IMG/VR virus record: IMGVR_UViG_3300021131_000012
Location: 1-45,615 of that record
DNA: 45,615 nucleotides
DNA from: a virus
Strand: one strand, 5' to 3'
The notes under the pieces are model-generated. The model ran no database searches, was not told the origin of the DNA, and worked only from the letters and a program-made list of their open reading frames with translations. Numbering within the stretch: the first letter of the stretch is position 1; every line of letters begins with the position of its first letter. Below, piece by piece: positions 1,604-29,912 of the stretch. The translations under genes were made by a program, and so were the position numbers.

Positions 1604-1756
1604 CTGTCTGGAATGATCTTACTTTTGACAGCGCGTCATACTAAGATCAGTCAGAAAAGCCCGCTACGGCGCGTAACGGAAGTGAATACGCGATAAATAC
1701 CATGATGAATATTTATCGCGCAAGAGTGTTAAAGGAAAAAATTACATTAATTTCAA
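1604..1756 (-). promoter_or_regulatory. Promoter and structured leader of the capsid genes
   Basis: On the minus strand TTGAAA (1756-1751), a 17-base spacer and TTTAAC (733-728 of the 1 kb block, i.e. 1733-1728) form a sigma70-like promoter overlapping the stop of the previous gene. The predicted start (about 1727-1721) is followed at once by a perfect 11-bp stem, CGCGATAAATA with its complement (1720-1710 and 1699-1689, 10-base loop). Next comes a 6-bp stem with a CGC loop at 1677-1663, followed by GGGCTTTT, then an 8-bp inverted repeat TGATCTTA/TAAGATCA (1649-1642 and 1621-1614). The ribosome-binding site lies after these. Confidence 0.5.
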
Positions 1757-3696: not shown

Positions 3697-3909
3697 CTAT
3701 CTCGCGTTGTTGGTATCGCCGATTAACTGATTGTTAATCTCATTAGCCCAGATAAGTGTGTCGGAAATTGCTTTCATATATCCGACGGCAGCTTTGTAGT
3801 CCTCTAGGTTGGTATAAGACCCGCTTAGGATGAACTCCGCACGGGTCTTTGTTTCTTCGGTTAACTTCTCCCGCAGCTTGCGGAAGAACAATATGTCAAA
3901 ACTATTCAC
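3697..3909 (-). CDS. Small helical protein
   Basis: A 70-aa protein of unknown function. It begins at GTG (3909-3907), placed directly after a strong GGAGGTGAC site; that site decides the start. The sequence is one or two amphipathic helices (KLREKLTEETKTRAEFILSG) followed by a Tyr-containing helix. I recall similar 60-70 aa proteins next to portal genes in related phages. It is 6 bases ahead of the co-chaperonin gene and 8 after the Gly/Pro-rich gene, so it is part of the head operon. Confidence 0.6.
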   Translation of the reverse strand: MNSFDILFFRKLREKLTEETKTRAEFILSGSYTNLEDYKAAVGYMKAISDTLIWANEINNQLIGDTNNAR

Positions 3910-15228: not shown

Positions 15229-15453
15229 ATGAAACCAAGGCACATAGAAGCCCAAGCACTGGCATCGCCGCTCTTTCGAAACCGAATCAAACCGGACAAA
15301 AAGAAGGCGCAGAACAGGCGGAAATGCCGTTCTAAACCCCAGACAAACTTTACGATGACAAAGAGCAGGGGCGGGTCAAACCGCCCTTTTCTATTGATAA
15401 AACAATACACTAACCAAAAACAAACCGCAAGATATTACCCATTGACATATTAA
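15229..15453 (+). CDS. Small basic protein
   Basis: A 74-aa very basic protein with AGGATAGGAT before its ATG. The first 37 residues (SPLFRNRIKPDKKKAQNRRK) look like small basic phage proteins of the LFRxRxxxxKKxxxRK kind. The rest is translated across a terminator hairpin (15369-15390) and a promoter, which is odd. In the +1 frame the gene would stop at 15354-15356, before the hairpin, so the present 3' end may result from a frameshift. Confidence is good for the N-terminal half only. Confidence 0.5.
   Translation: MKPRHIEAQALASPLFRNRIKPDKKKAQNRRKCRSKPQTNFTMTKSRGGSNRPFLLIKQYTNQKQTARYYPLTY
15369..15390 (+). terminator. Rho-independent terminator inside a reading frame
   Basis: GGGCGG-GTCAAA-CCGCCC is followed by TTTTCTATT. 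It is a normal-looking terminator, but the reading frame from 15229 runs through it; see that entry. Confidence 0.6.
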
Positions 15454-15469
15454 ACCTTTCGTTTAAAAT
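15442..15469 (+). promoter_or_regulatory. Sigma70-like promoter
   Basis: TTGACA (15442-15447), a 16-base spacer and TAAAAT (15464-15469) lie just after a terminator and before a run of small rightward genes (15514-17141). It is probably an early promoter read by host RNA polymerase. Confidence 0.65.
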
Positions 15470-16417: not shown

Positions 16418-16698
16418 TGGACCACATGACAAGCAAAAGCAATTACGGAACTTACGAGCCAAGTGCGACAGTTGGAGGTGCTGGCAATATCCAGCAACAG
16501 ATGCTGGACACTTTGCAAATCTTGACCACGCCACAGATGGTGGTGGATGATCCAAAGAAACTGCGAGACCAGTTTGCAATGGTGGCGTTGATAGGAATAC
16601 TTGTAGGATTGCCAAATAGAAAAATTGGGCCGGAAAATTATGCTCATGACGCATACATGTTTGCCGATGCCATGATGAAAGAACGGGAGGCCAAGTAA
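16417..16698 (+). CDS. RDQFAM-family protein, copy 1
   Basis: A 93-aa protein; GGGGAG lies eight bases ahead of the ATG, which overlaps the previous stop. The C-terminal half has LRDQFAMVALIGILVG and AYMFADAMMKERE. The next gene repeats this pattern. Similar 'RDxFAxAALxGLL...AYxxADAML' proteins are frequent in phages and have no known role. The N-terminal half is Thr/Ser/Gln-rich and probably flexible. Confidence 0.6.
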   Translation: MDHMTSKSNYGTYEPSATVGGAGNIQQQMLDTLQILTTPQMVVDDPKKLRDQFAMVALIGILVGLPNRKIGPENYAHDAYMFADAMMKEREAK

Positions 16699-16934
16699 TG
16701 ATCAAAATGACCAAGAACCGGATCAACGATCTGGAAATCGAAAACGTTTATTTGAAATCCGAATTGCTAGACCGCCCGACGATGCGGGATCAGTTTGCAA
16801 TGGCGGCTTTAACTGGGATCATTACAAGTTCCGCAACATATTTTGACGAAAACGGATTTAACCAATTTGCGGTTTGGTCATATGAAATTGCGGATGCAAT
16901 GATGAAAGCGCAAGACGAGCCAACCAAAAATTGA
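16698..16934 (+). CDS. RDQFAM-family protein, copy 2
   Basis: A 78-aa protein, ATG overlapping the previous stop, with GGGAGG seven bases ahead. An N-terminal helix (KNRINDLEIENVYLKSELL) precedes MRDQFAMAALTGIIT and YEIADAMMKAQDE. It is a paralogue of the gene before it. A 69-base gap with a very strong RNA hairpin follows before the next gene. Confidence 0.6.
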   Translation: MIKMTKNRINDLEIENVYLKSELLDRPTMRDQFAMAALTGIITSSATYFDENGFNQFAVWSYEIADAMMKAQDEPTKN

Positions 16935-16967
16935 GCGGATTTGTCCACCAGTTTTATGCCGCAAATG

Positions 16968-17005
16968 ATATGGTCTTCCTGTTCACATCAACAGGAGGGC
17001 CATAT
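16968..17005 (+). promoter_or_regulatory. RNA hairpin hiding the next ribosome-binding site
   Basis: Bases 16968-16983 (ATATGGTCTTCCTGTT) pair with 16990-17005 over 16 bp, including two G-U pairs, with a six-base loop CACATC. The right arm contains the ribosome-binding site AGGAGGG and the first two bases of the ATG at 17004. Translation of the 45-aa gene would be blocked until the stem opens. Confidence 0.6.
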
Positions 17006-17141
17006 GGCTTTGTACATCGTTTCTTCGACTGCACCAATCGTTCGGGAGTGTGAAATCGTTGCGGATAATCTAACCGCCGCCATCGAAATTGCGGCATCCG
17101 AACTGGTCAAAATGCTGGCGGAAACGGAATCCGAAGACTGA
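17004..17141 (+). CDS. 45-aa protein behind a masking hairpin
   Basis: A 45-aa protein MALYIVSSTAPIVRECEIV followed by ADNLTAAIEIAASELVKML and an acidic tail. The layout (one strand, one helix with A-x-x-x-x-AIEIA) matches the 50-aa gene at 14992 and the ends of the tandem pair at 14059. It has an excellent AGGAGGG site, but that site lies inside a 16-bp RNA stem. It is the last gene of the rightward block and is followed by a strong hairpin. Confidence 0.6.
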   Translation: MALYIVSSTAPIVRECEIVADNLTAAIEIAASELVKMLAETESED

Positions 17142-17146
17142 TAAGT

Positions 17147-17184
17147 GGGGGAGGGCCAAAACTGGGGGAAAGCCCTCCCCCTTT
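17147..17184. terminator. Strong hairpin between convergent genes
   Basis: A 10-bp perfect stem GGGGGAGGGC/GCCCTCCCCC with a 15-base loop, followed on the plus strand by TTTC. It separates the rightward accessory block from the leftward helicase gene. The T-run is short on the plus strand and absent on the minus strand, so it may act with Rho or be a weak two-way stop. Confidence 0.5.
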
Positions 17185-17253
17185 CATCAACCGCCGCAAA
17201 AGGAGCAAAAACAGCGGGACGAATAACTTATCGGGCACTATACTCCCGACTAC

Positions 17254-18741
17254 CTAGCGGAACAATCGGTTTTTGGTATCAAAATTCAACACCGTGTACC
17301 CAATCTTGCCAGCATCCGGTTGATACCGAATCTTTTTAATGTAGATACCCGTAGTCGTATCGTATTCCGGATCACCAATTCTCCCGACAATTACACCCAA
17401 ATCGGCCTTGTTAGCCCAGTGGGAGCTGTCCGCGAGATTGTATAAACCCAGTTCCTCGCTATCCATTTGGCTAGATGCCTTGGTAGGATGAACCACTACT
17501 ATCACCAATACGTTATACTGCATAGCAAACGCTTTTAGCTTTTTGATCGCCCGACCAATGTATTCCGTCTGGCTTTCGTCAGCACGTTTTCGGTGTTCTA
17601 TTTCGTTCCAAGGATCGATCAATACGCACTTGACCCCTTCGCGGATCACTGACGTCTGCATCTTGTCCAACAACCAATCAATATCATGTTCGGTGTCGAG
17701 GTCACTACGGTTCGGCGCGATAAACGTGAAATACTTGTTGATAAAGACGGTCGCCTTTTCCTTCAACGCATGGGATGCGTCAGCGAACTTCCCACCAATG
17801 GCTGCACCCATGATCGCATGAGTGACGTATGGGGAGATTTGCATTTCGAATGACGCGACAGCAATGGGCCATTTATGCATCTTCGCGAGGTTTGCGACCA
17901 GCTGCATGGTCCAAGTACTCTTCCCATGCCCCGGAAATCCCCCTACAACCATGAACGCGCCCAAATGGGGGGTCAGGTAGCTGTCAACCAATGGCCAGCC
18001 TGTAGAGTAGGTTTTTATCGGTTCTGCGGGCGGGAAGTCCTGTTCCTTGAACAGACCGTCGATAGGGTACGGCTTCGCGTTCTTGATTATGTCCAGAACA
18101 GTTTCCGGACCATACTGGACAAGGACGTCATTAAAGTCCTTACAGCCATCCGGATATACCACGAATGAACAGCGAACGCGATCCAGCCTGCGCACAAGCT
18201 CTTCCGCAAGACGTTGACCAGCTTCATCATTGTCTGCCGCGATTATGATGCGCGGGATTTTGGAAAGGGCATCCCAGTCATTGACGATAAAACCATATTT
18301 GACATCTTGGTCAACATTGATGGGATCATTTTCAACAACCCGAATAAGCTGTCCATTACGATCACGAGGGGGAGGAGCCCCATCAGGAACGGAAACAACA
18401 AAATGATGACCGGAATGGGCAACTGATAACGCATCGACTTCACCTTCGGTAATAACAAGAGCCGCACGACCATCGTGCAACATTGGCTCATCCAAAATGT
18501 CAGCATTAAAGAACTGCTTGCGCCCGTCCTTCTTCTGCCAAAATGATTTTTGTGCGCCCCTATACTTCGCGCCTACTTCTACACCATTGCGAATGAAAGG
18601 GAAAACAAAAATGTCCCCTGTTTCATCTTGATGGACTGAACCACCGAGTTCGCGCTTCCCGCTGTAGCACCCCATATGTTCGGCTATTTGCGTTGTCAGC
18701 CCCCGACCTTCCAGCCACTTTGAATGTTTTTCCGCTATCAT
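17254..18741 (-). CDS. TOPRIM primase-helicase, T7 gp4-like
   Basis: A 495-aa protein with a TOPRIM primase domain (ITEGEVDAL, about 97-105; AADNDEAG, 168-175; KDFND, 201-205) and a RecA/DnaB-type helicase domain (Walker A GGFPGHGKST, 267-276; Walker B VLIDPW, 373-378; VVVHPTK sensor, 415-421). It should unwind the fork and make primers, as T7 gp4 does. The zinc-binding domain that normally precedes TOPRIM is encoded in the overlapping frame 5' of it. The ATG at 18741 has GGGGGAG six to eight bases ahead, so it can be made alone. Confidence 0.9.
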   Translation of the reverse strand: MIAEKHSKWLEGRGLTTQIAEHMGCYSGKRELGGSVHQDETGDIFVFPFIRNGVEVGAKYRGAQKSFWQKKDGRKQFFNADILDEPMLHDGRAALVITEGEVDALSVAHSGHHFVVSVPDGAPPPRDRNGQLIRVVENDPINVDQDVKYGFIVNDWDALSKIPRIIIAADNDEAGQRLAEELVRRLDRVRCSFVVYPDGCKDFNDVLVQYGPETVLDIIKNAKPYPIDGLFKEQDFPPAEPIKTYSTGWPLVDSYLTPHLGAFMVVGGFPGHGKSTWTMQLVANLAKMHKWPIAVASFEMQISPYVTHAIMGAAIGGKFADASHALKEKATVFINKYFTFIAPNRSDLDTEHDIDWLLDKMQTSVIREGVKCVLIDPWNEIEHRKRADESQTEYIGRAIKKLKAFAMQYNVLVIVVVHPTKASSQMDSEELGLYNLADSSHWANKADLGVIVGRIGDPEYDTTTGIYIKKIRYQPDAGKIGYTVLNFDTKNRLFR

Positions 18742-21845: not shown

Positions 21846-22107
21846 AGTTCTTACTCCTTGGTTTGTTGATAGAATTCGCCATTTCGACAATTTCAGAAAT
21901 CGAGGGAGGGTATTTGCATTTCGCCAAGATACCCGCCCTTGGGTCCGCCAGTTTTTGGATCACCTTCTGATCGTACGTCACCAACACTTCCTCCACCAAC
22001 TTCATGTACTGCGTCGGGTTCGGCAAAAGGGTCAGAGTATACGCACTCGCTATCTTGCTCGCGAGTTCCATTGGGGTCATCAACTGGCTCTGGTGTCCAT
22101 TTTCCAT
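21838..22107 (-). CDS. Small replication partner-like protein, nested
   Basis: An 89-aa protein. The key part reads TPMELASKIASAYTLTLLPN, then a helix, then DPRAGILAKCKYPPSISEIV. This 'LP...Y...DP..G...C+..PS..EIV' pattern occurs in small proteins beside phage replication initiators, so I judge it real. Most of it (21893-22107) lies inside the C-terminal part of the initiator gene in another frame. The start could also be the ATG at 22125; GGAATAACT before 22107 is the better site. It may help load the helicase, by position only. Confidence 0.55.
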   Translation of the reverse strand: MENGHQSQLMTPMELASKIASAYTLTLLPNPTQYMKLVEEVLVTYDQKVIQKLADPRAGILAKCKYPPSISEIVEMANSINKPRSKNFV

Positions 22108-22834
22108 AGTTATTCCATGCTCCATCTGGTGAAGGACGCGACATAAGTTCCGCTACTGCTTCATTGTACTCGTTCCTTTTCTTCTCTAGGCCCGTAGGTG
22201 GTTTCGAAAGTATCTTCGAAATGTACGGGACCGGATCACGAGGGTTCGCGTTAAGAGCCGCCGTGAACACTTCCAGAACGCGGCGTTGGTCACCCTTGGC
22301 CCATTTAAGGCACCGCCCAGTGAACTGACGCGCTGTGGATTCCACCAAGCCCAGCACCATCAAAGACCCAACAGCCTCGTCCCAAAACTTTGCACCATCG
22401 TTCACTACAGGCGGAGTATCGTCTTTCATTAACGAAGTTAATGTATGGTTATCTATTACAGGTTTGGGTGTCTGATAGACACCCTCCCCCGTGTCTATTG
22501 GACACCCTAGGGGGTCTGCCTGAACCCCTACATTTTTCCCATCGTTCACTTCAGGTGAATAATTGTCGATGTGCAATTGATACTGATTGGATTTGTTCCG
22601 GCCAATCTTGTCACGGCGTTCAACGGCGGTAATCAACCCCGCCTTCTCCAGCTCATCAACCGACCGCAAGATACTGCTACGCGACATACAGCAATCCGTT
22701 TCCAATCTACGTATAGAAGGGAAGCAGTCGCCTGTGTCGGCGTTAAACCGATCCGCAAGTGCGAGAAGCACGAGCTTTGACATGTATGAGATTGATTTTT
22801 GGGACCATGCCCACGAAGTGGCCTTATGCGACAT
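21893..22834 (-). CDS. Winged-helix replication initiator-like protein
   Basis: A 313-aa protein starting MSHKATSWAWSQKSISYMSK, then LVLLALADRFNADTGDCFPSI and a helix-turn-helix with SRSSILRSVDELEKAGLITA (about residues 58-77). This N-terminus is typical of phage replisome organisers such as those with a lambda O-like role. Residues about 150-225 are a helical domain (SLMVLGLVESTARQF ...). The last 75 or so residues are Gly/Asp/Glu/Pro-rich and low in complexity; they are read over the next gene. GGAG lies seven bases ahead of 22834. Confidence 0.75.
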   Translation of the reverse strand: MSHKATSWAWSQKSISYMSKLVLLALADRFNADTGDCFPSIRRLETDCCMSRSSILRSVDELEKAGLITAVERRDKIGRNKSNQYQLHIDNYSPEVNDGKNVGVQADPLGCPIDTGEGVYQTPKPVIDNHTLTSLMKDDTPPVVNDGAKFWDEAVGSLMVLGLVESTARQFTGRCLKWAKGDQRRVLEVFTAALNANPRDPVPYISKILSKPPTGLEKKRNEYNEAVAELMSRPSPDGAWNNYGKWTPEPVDDPNGTREQDSECVYSDPFAEPDAVHEVGGGSVGDVRSEGDPKTGGPKGGYLGEMQIPSLDF

Positions 22835-22889
22835 TGTGTTCTCCAATAGCCTTGACTGGGAGAACACGGGCGGCTTATAAATGAGCCAG

Positions 22890-23617: not shown

Positions 23618-23646
23618 ACTATATGTTGAGTATGGTTTGATGTCAA
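23618..23646 (-). promoter_or_regulatory. Sigma70-like promoter, leftward
   Basis: On the minus strand TTGACA (23646-23641), a 17-base spacer and TATAGT (23623-23618), near consensus. It drives the Cro-like gene and the replication operon. A plus-strand TTGACA (23612-23617) faces it and would point to the rightward genes, but its -10 (GTTTGA) is poor. Together they make a TTGACA...TGTCAA symmetrical switch. Confidence 0.75.
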
Positions 23647-28971: not shown

Positions 28972-29279
28972 ACCTCATTCAGACTATCATTTGGGCTAGG
29001 GCCATCACGCCACGAGACCAAATCTTAATCCTACGTATGCTCGACACGCATGGCACAAAGCCGTTCGATGCGGATATCGCTGATCTGGCGGAAATGATGT
29101 CACTCCCGAAGTCATCGATCTACGAATGCATCAAACGGCTCAAAAGCATCGACTGGTTAGAGACGGAGCCTGTGTACCTTGATGGGACTTATCGCCGTTT
29201 GAAGAAGCGTTCCAAAACGCGCTATCGGGTCAAACTAGAGATAAAAAAAGAGGCGGACCGAAGCCCGCCTGAGTTCTAG
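28968..29279 (+). CDS. Winged-helix DNA-binding protein
   Basis: A 103-aa protein with a helix-turn-helix: ADIADLAEMMSLPKSSIYECIKRL (about 35-58, the middle is the turn), then a beta-wing (IDWLETEPVYLDGTYRRL). Its layout is like initiators' N-terminal winged helices or regulators. It is the last rightward gene and faces the lysis genes, so it may switch expression late. The 3' end is within a short GC-rich inverted repeat (AGGCGG/CCGCCT) that overlaps the stop. Confidence 0.65.
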   Translation: MNLIQTIIWARAITPRDQILILRMLDTHGTKPFDADIADLAEMMSLPKSSIYECIKRLKSIDWLETEPVYLDGTYRRLKKRSKTRYRVKLEIKKEADRSPPEF

Positions 29280-29318
29280 GGAGGAAGACCTCCAACGTAT
29301 GTGGGACATCGTATTCTG

Positions 29319-29912
29319 TCAAGCATAAGAAGCGTAGTGATCCGCAAGTTTCACATCGTATTGATTAGCTGCATAGCCCGGCCCATTATAACCCTTCGCG
29401 AAAGCTGCCCAATCGAGTCTCGCGAGGGGAACATCCAATTTTGCTGCCTTGATGAACTTGGCCATGTGGATCAGCTGGTTGCCTTCCGATTCCATCGCCT
29501 GCTGCACCATGTCTTTAACCGATTCGCATCCGACCATGACCCAGTTCATACCCATGATCTGGCCAAGACCCCACGAGACAGAACACAGGGCGGCATCTTC
29601 ATCAATCTTGCATGCGCGGTCGATCTCCTCGTACACGGCATCCGAACCTTTCGGGTAGGGGAGCTGACCCCATTTTGGGTACGCGAGCTTCTCGTCAATC
29701 GCCAGCTGTTGAAGGTCCGGCTGGGCACGAAGCTCCCGATAGAAGATATGACGTTCAAAAAGGGCTTTAGGACGCCCGTCAGCGTCAAATCCCGATCCAG
29801 CGGCCTCGACAGCCGTGACGGCTTTAAAAGCCGCTAGAGGCACCTTAATTGAGTCCGCAGCCGCTTGGAAATCTTCTTCGGTGGCTTTCTTCGCGGAACC
29901 TACAAAATTCAT
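29319..29912 (-). CDS. Endolysin, N-acetylmuramidase type
   Basis: A 197-aa enzyme of the DUF3380 / N-acetylmuramidase family. The catalytic motif is VTAVEAAGSGFDADGRP (32-48, E36 as general acid), followed by LFERHIFYRE, then SWGLGQIMGMNW and a GYNGPGY C-terminal part typical of these enzymes. It cuts cell-wall glycan strands at lysis. It lies right after the holin gene, whose stop overlaps its ATG region, and it is the last gene of the late operon. GGGAG precedes the ATG. Confidence 0.88.
   Translation of the reverse strand: MNFVGSAKKATEEDFQAAADSIKVPLAAFKAVTAVEAAGSGFDADGRPKALFERHIFYRELRAQPDLQQLAIDEKLAYPKWGQLPYPKGSDAVYEEIDRACKIDEDAALCSVSWGLGQIMGMNWVMVGCESVKDMVQQAMESEGNQLIHMAKFIKAAKLDVPLARLDWAAFAKGYNGPGYAANQYDVKLADHYASYA

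Follow-up and report, generated by a model that had tools for sequence, protein, structure and literature searches.

A start-site hairpin in an uncultivated bacterial virus most likely adds a further example of the leader lock known from phage T4

Switches in which a long message is silent and a short one is active are already known from phage T4. As described in PMC3014915, a helix sequesters the Shine-Dalgarno sequence and/or AUG of the T4 genes e, soc and 49 when the transcript is a long early one, and late promoters located upstream of e give RNA without the 5' strand of that helix. A similar arrangement is set out in PMC2988022 for I-TevI, I-TevII, I-TevIII, segB and Aeh1 mobE, where read-through messages are silent and the transcripts of the promoter cannot form the hairpin. 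According to PMC3014915 and PMC2988022, relatives of T4 have a late promoter within the DNA from which the 5' strand of this structure is transcribed.

The hairpin that we describe here is most likely a further example of the leader lock of T4 e and I-TevI. It was found in an IMG/VR virus record of an uncultivated bacterial virus, of which we analyzed a 45.6-kb stretch (the window, meaning the whole stretch of DNA analyzed). The gene content is that of a phage, with terminase, portal, capsid, replication-initiator and primase/helicase genes, and a GcrA-like gene in the window hints at an alphaproteobacterial host. As in T4 e, soc and 49, the start site is predicted to be held in a helix on long transcripts, and, as in the I-TevI group, a silent read-through message would be combined with a promoter that appears to be positioned to avoid the hairpin. 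T4 uses a phage late-sigma promoter, whereas the putative promoter motif found here resembles a host-type extended -10 element, in a phage of a different type and ahead of a small uncharacterized gene; the genes of the I-TevI group encode homing endonucleases, whereas the gene considered here is the last of its operon and encodes a protein of 45-77 aa.

Anatomy and strength of the start-site hairpin

The stem at the start of the 45-aa gene consists of 16 continuous pairs, of which 14 are Watson-Crick and two are G-U (16974/16999 and 16976/16997), and AGGAGGG (16993-16999) lies wholly within its right arm (Table 1). The first-pass annotation, made from the sequence alone, had placed the two arms and the six-base loop exactly so, had counted two G-U pairs, and was right that the stem buries AGGAGGG and the first two bases of the start codon. 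The refolding of the region that it proposed likewise recovers the stem, with RNAfold giving -39.7 kcal/mol in a 131-nt context (z -2.39, 4/200 shuffles as good); the stem folded alone has -24 kcal/mol. Its remark that ribosomes terminating at the preceding gene cannot reach the stem stands, with a gap of 33 bases from the stop at 16934 in place of the 34 given. The position of the G-U pairs, which it had read as a sign that RNA pairing is being kept, is weak evidence when taken alone, as a G-U pair necessarily falls where the DNA repeat is imperfect.

Table 1. Coordinates of features at the 45-aa gene and of a second start-site stem in the window
Feature	Position	Strand	Remarks
Predicted sigma-70 promoter, TTGACA-16-TAAAAT	15442..15469	+	11/12 consensus positions; heads the small-gene operon
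78-aa gene preceding the leader	16698..16934	+	stop 16932-16934; member of the small-gene operon
Untranslated leader, 69 nt	16935..17003	+	between the 78-aa and 45-aa genes
TGATATGGT, extended -10-like motif TGnTATRGT	16966..16974	+	candidate promoter; overlaps the left arm
Left arm AUAUGGUCUUCCUGUU, anti-Shine-Dalgarno arm	16968..16983	+	from sequence and RNAfold
Predicted short-mRNA start, G	16981..16981	+	7 nt after the motif; the RNA would be without most of the left arm
Loop CACAUC, six bases	16984..16989	+	from sequence and RNAfold
Right arm AACAGGAGGGCCAUAU	16990..17005	+	holds AGGAGG (16993-16998) and the AU of the start codon
45-aa gene at the end of the operon	17004..17141	+	ATG 17004-17006
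GC-rich inverted repeat, possible terminator	17139..17189		18-nt arms, 83% complementary
Second start-site stem, GUGUUCUCC (22867-22859) with GGAGAACAC (22844-22836)	22836..22867	-	ahead of the replication-initiator gene

Stems of this length are rare in the window. A scan for continuous stems of at least 12 bp (loop 3-12, at most two G-U) on the + strand of the 45.6 kb returned two only, the one at 16968-17005 (16 bp) and one of 17 bp at 22466-22507, and 20 windows randomized with a first-order Markov model held on average 0.05 stems of 15 bp and none of 16. The hairpin at 22466-22507, which has two G-U pairs and a loop of 8, lies within the replication-initiator gene. With the start site kept fixed, 0/500 shuffled upstreams and 0/500 random 32-mers from the window fold as stably as the window leader. 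The start site of the 45-aa gene is also the most buried among those of 56 called genes, with a mean unpaired probability of 0.118 vs 0.29 for the next, the calls coming from a simple in-house scheme and 56 being an approximate gene count. The stem is missing from the list returned by a repeat search with a 9-base exact seed, because its G-U pairs interrupt such a seed. A role as terminator was rejected, there being no T run after the stem, which is also absent from the terminator-like sites listed.

Predicted folding leaves the Shine-Dalgarno sequence of the window fully paired with the upstream arm on the long RNA, which is the pairing described for T4 e and I-TevI, and we consider repression of translation by the stem quite probable on a read-through message. 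Comparable hairpins over start sites serve as RNA thermometers, and opening at higher temperature could be imagined here too. The energy model speaks against it: the unpaired share of the Shine-Dalgarno sequence of the window is 0.1% at 45 C and 4.6% at 90 C, that of the related contig L033 is still completely paired at 45 C, and those of L031 and L032 hardly change from 5 to 45 C. We rejected a thermometer on this computed melting, by which the stem is predicted to be stable beyond 90 C, and regard it as exceedingly improbable. Of the first-pass proposal that translation is held off until the stem is freed, the holding off on the read-through message is thus retained and release by temperature is not, with the Shine-Dalgarno sequence more than 95% paired up to 90 C.

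The 45-aa gene closes a run of close-set small + strand genes behind the strong predicted promoter at 15442-15469, whose 28-base string recurs identically in L031, 985 bases upstream of the small gene, and no + strand terminator-like site was found between 16000 and the 45-aa gene. The operon is probably an early one. Downstream, the GC-rich repeat separates the 45-aa gene from the convergent primase gene (17254-18741).

Several other structures were observed in the window. 3' of the primase gene (about 17254 down to 17139 of the window, - strand; L001-L017) two hairpins follow one another: the first has a bulge of two bases and, in most cases, CUCC in its loop, and the second is strong and has a loop rich in pyrimidines. 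The fold with the bulge occurs in 11/26 folded sequences, including phages whose primases are only 62-65% identical, and may represent a 3'-end small RNA. Rfam reported nothing at the leaders of the 45-aa and replication-initiator genes, its sole two matches (E up to 1) being at 29236-29313 on the - strand, directly after a gene ending at 29319; these are weak matches below the gathering score, to suhB/mmgR (E 0.037) and SorX (E 0.1). A 14-bp inverted repeat lies at 1687-1722 (- strand) in the gap between two structural-region genes, and the GTG start at 3909 (- strand) has its Shine-Dalgarno sequence inside a stem, with 5/500 shuffles equally stable.

Related leaders and conservation of the pairing

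Scans with the primase, the small protein, the upstream protein and a DNA pattern identified the same arrangement in four other viral contigs (L001/L031, L010/L033, L002/L032 and L003/L034), all sharing the order of upstream small gene, 69-71-nt leader, small gene, GC-rich repeat and convergent primase. Homologues of the 78-aa gene sit ahead of the leader in L035/L036. The leaders of L032 and L034 are near-identical, leaving four distinct leaders including that of the window, which share ancestry and have lengths of 69, 71, 71 and 70 nt; identity to the window leader is 79% for L033 and 59% for L032. These lengths exclude a kept coding frame through the leader, and for this reason the alternative TTG start at 16941 (66-aa ORF) is not favored.

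No further relatives beyond the same four were found among the viral contigs. Searches of 50,697 phage records gave no match to the leader (blastn) or the small protein (tblastn), and genome contigs gave no match either. A small-protein profile matched none of 16 further records, a set that included no positive control, and next to primases at most 66% identical no such small gene with this stem was seen among the listed 0.5-0.9 kb downstream.

We judged the pairing in these leaders from single folds and a register set by hand rather than from RNAalifold. On a MAFFT alignment the latter gives a weak consensus (-6.76 kcal/mol, 24 pairs, 5 changed on both sides) and breaks several pairs of L032/L034, since MAFFT misses the different register of their stem.

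In L033 pairs 5-15 of the window register all form, and pair 9 changes from G-U in the window to C-G. Pair 8, which is C-G in the window, is U-A in both L033 and L031, a compensatory change. Both of these leaders break pair 16, and in both an extra base beside the start codon disturbs the four lowest pairs of the window stem. L032 and its near-copy L034 have the lower stem rebuilt in another register: in L032, GUUAUAGUG pairs with CACUAUGGC and GCCUUC with GGAGGC around a three-base bulge, making 9+6 bp in which the start codon is paired at 0.998. L031 has two uncompensated mismatches, at pairs 9 and 10, as well as a G-U.

The same division is seen in the comparisons with randomized sequence. 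Folds as stable were obtained among 500 shuffled upstreams 0 times for the window, 0 for L033, 3 for L032, 2 for L034 and 119 for L031, and among 500 random window 32-mers 0, 3, 44, 38 and 174 times in the same order. When Shine-Dalgarno and AUG pairing was compared with that of 600 random upstreams, 17 were as high for the window, 9 for L033, 5 for L032 and 282 for L031; with the Shine-Dalgarno sequence only, the numbers were 0, 0, 81 and 188. A kept lock is therefore supported by three of the four distinct leaders, by L032 less than by the window and L033, and not by L031. Conservation of the stem is mixed, because the L031 stem, with its two mismatches, does no better than random sequence. 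The paired changes in relatives that the first-pass annotation had looked to are accordingly present as the compensated pair of L033 and the re-registered stem of L032/L034, and fail in L031.

These observations also bear on the reading that the stem is coincidental, either neutral sequence or a DNA palindrome that regulates nothing. The broken stem of L031, where the gene is nevertheless kept, the number of distinct leaders, only four, and the shortened state of the window gene itself all fit such a reading. However, a stem of this kind at a start site is very improbable by chance, and one compensated pair and one re-registered stem also speak against coincidence, which we consider very unlikely.

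A conserved extended -10-like motif and proposed release of the start site

The most conserved block of the leaders is the motif TGnTATRGT, rather than the stem. The alignment has 71 columns, 27 of which are invariant among the four distinct sequences. All seven fixed columns of the motif are invariant in 4/4 distinct leaders, the only such placement of 62, and invariant columns elsewhere amount to 9/32 upstream, 3/9 in the part of the left arm that follows and 8/21 in the rest. From the end of the motif to the ATG there are 29 nt in the window and 30 nt in the other four contigs. A caveat on the motif is that complementing an AUAUG start would itself favor TAT in the left arm.

The motif resembles the extended -10 consensus, TGnTATAAT. 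By an approximate sigma-70 table, its extended -10 score is reached by 0.18% of window positions for the window, L033 and L031 and by 0.01% for L032. No convincing -35 box was found for the motif at 16966-16974, and with a -35 element included the score is unremarkable: the positions scoring as high, again by approximate tables, are 2.5% for the window, 0.4% for L033, 0.4% for L031 and 1.1% for L032. TATAGT is plausible as a -10 element in this phage because a strong TTGACA-17-TATAGT site is present at 23623 on the - strand. The corresponding promoters of T4 are late ones, whereas ahead of structural genes, where examined, no matching motif was found here, a point against the model proposed below. 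The motif is largely unpaired in the folds of L033 and L031.

An RNA starting at 16981 in the window would begin GUUCACAUC and could not form the stem; with the 5' end at this position the computed mean unpaired probability of the Shine-Dalgarno sequence rises from 0.00 to 0.60. In the model that we propose, the hairpin would lock translation of the gene that closes an operon of small and probably early genes. Polymerase from the operon promoter (15442-15469) would read through into the 45-aa gene, and on the long mRNA the left arm would pair with the Shine-Dalgarno sequence and start codon, leaving translation almost off. Bypass would most likely occur via a second, weaker extended -10-type promoter overlapping the left arm, whose RNA, starting at about 16981, would be without most of that arm and have its Shine-Dalgarno sequence exposed. 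Release would then be due to an RNA that starts within the arm and not to a protein, a choice that we make because the conserved TGnTATRGT overlaps the left arm. What the analysis itself provides is the stem with its strength and position, the conserved motif and the predicted opening upon 5' truncation; repression in cells, an internal promoter together with its timing and any factor it requires, and the early nature of the operon are inferred. The whole model, a lock plus an internal promoter following the logic of T4 e and I-TevI, has in our judgement about an even chance of being correct.

Two other routes to release or control have to be weighed against it. An RNase could cut the hairpin, remove the left arm and so switch the gene on, which would give much the same short mRNA as an internal promoter, and the 16 bp of continuous helix in the window would suit it. 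The helix of L033 is 12 bp, however, and those of L032 and L031 are interrupted, which makes them rather short substrates for a double-strand RNase; cleavage of both strands would moreover harm the Shine-Dalgarno arm, and TGnTATRGT would be left unexplained. Such processing appears to us quite unlikely. A static or factor-controlled repression needing no internal promoter, possible though rather unlikely in our estimate, would have the stem keep the protein scarce on the long mRNA, or an RNA-binding protein open or hold it, by analogy with the T4 translational repressors RegA, gp32 and gp43, which act at other start sites. It would agree with a stem that is strong in the window and L033 and present in L032, and with a candidate promoter that has no -35 box. 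It would not account for a top conserved block that is a -10-like motif and not the arms or loop, and -24 kcal/mol seems, as a matter of judgement, more than a binding protein would need.

The small protein and a second start-site stem

The small gene encodes a protein of 45 aa in the window and of 69, 69 and 77 aa in the distinct homologues, and the four distinct proteins have in common MA.(Y/F)IVS..AP..RE.E.VAD....AIEIA. Relative to its homologues the window protein is shorter by 24-32 residues at the C-terminus, a stretch that takes in the last predicted strand, while no other leader of the set has as strong a hairpin. Pfam gave no match for the window protein. The two 69-aa homologues weakly match phrog_1307, annotated as 'RNA polymerase inhibitor' (E 0.0024 and 0.0013), and the window protein and the 77-aa homologue do not match it.

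A model of a 69-aa homologue (pLDDT 73) has a beta-beta-alpha-beta arrangement. Its first PDB row in Foldseek is T7 Gp2 (4lk0_M), with a non-significant E of 0.59, and the top viral row carries the name 'RNA polymerase inhibitor' (E 0.07). In VIA-align Gp2 4lk0_M has Z 4.5 and other folds reach Z up to 5.7, with ribosomal proteins above Gp2, and sequence searches of solved structures returned no Gp2 row. We did not file the protein as Gp2, as other folds score as high in VIA-align. The likeness to T7 Gp2-type inhibitors thus consists of the weak phrog_1307 matches of two 69-aa homologues and of Gp2 as first Foldseek PDB row, whereas the window and 77-aa proteins have no phrog_1307 match and the structure matches are not significant; that the small protein might act on the RNA polymerase of the host is at best a lead, based on sequence similarity and a predicted structure.

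A scan for start-site stems over all collected loci gave many matches, GC-rich contigs included, of which only the leader of the replication-initiator gene was credited. This gene (21893-22834, - strand; phrog_1032, E 9.6e-24) has its Shine-Dalgarno sequence within the stem. In the related L040 the stem is kept as GUAUUCUCC/GGAGAGUAC, with a G-C to A-U change plus a G-U; it holds in L041, L042 and L046, is altered with a bulge in L043-L045 and was not seen in two distant relatives, L047 and L048. Its stability relative to shuffled upstreams is modest, with 13 as stable among 500 for the window, 47 for L040, 12 for L041, 15 for L042, 0 for L043 and 9 for L046. By eye, the 170-nt leader of this gene has further upstream inverted repeats, GCACCcCCGG/CCGGAGGUGC, GGGGUggcaACCCC and UUCC-GAUA/UAUC-GGAA.

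The model of a promoter within the arm is not transferable to the replication-initiator leader, because a promoter-like TTATA lies ahead of the arm there. A stem whose pairing is kept through changes with no such motif in its arm is what static or factor-controlled repression would lead one to expect; against it, inspection reveals no obvious loop motif common to both leaders.

For the small gene we continue to favor a lock bypassed by an internal promoter. If this is right, the timing known from T4, with a silent long and an active short message, would extend to a very different uncultivated phage with host-type promoters, and an extended -10 element inside an anti-Shine-Dalgarno arm would provide a search rule for metagenomic phages. 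It is also conceivable, though unlikely, that the locked gene encodes an inhibitor of host RNA polymerase made only from the weak promoter inside the lock, which would time host shut-off. Were this true, the phage would first exploit the host polymerase and shut it down at a later stage, and, together with the replication-initiator stem, leader hairpins would time both transcription and replication. The presence of two start-site stems in one phage suggests that translational timing by leader hairpins is not just a speciality of T4.
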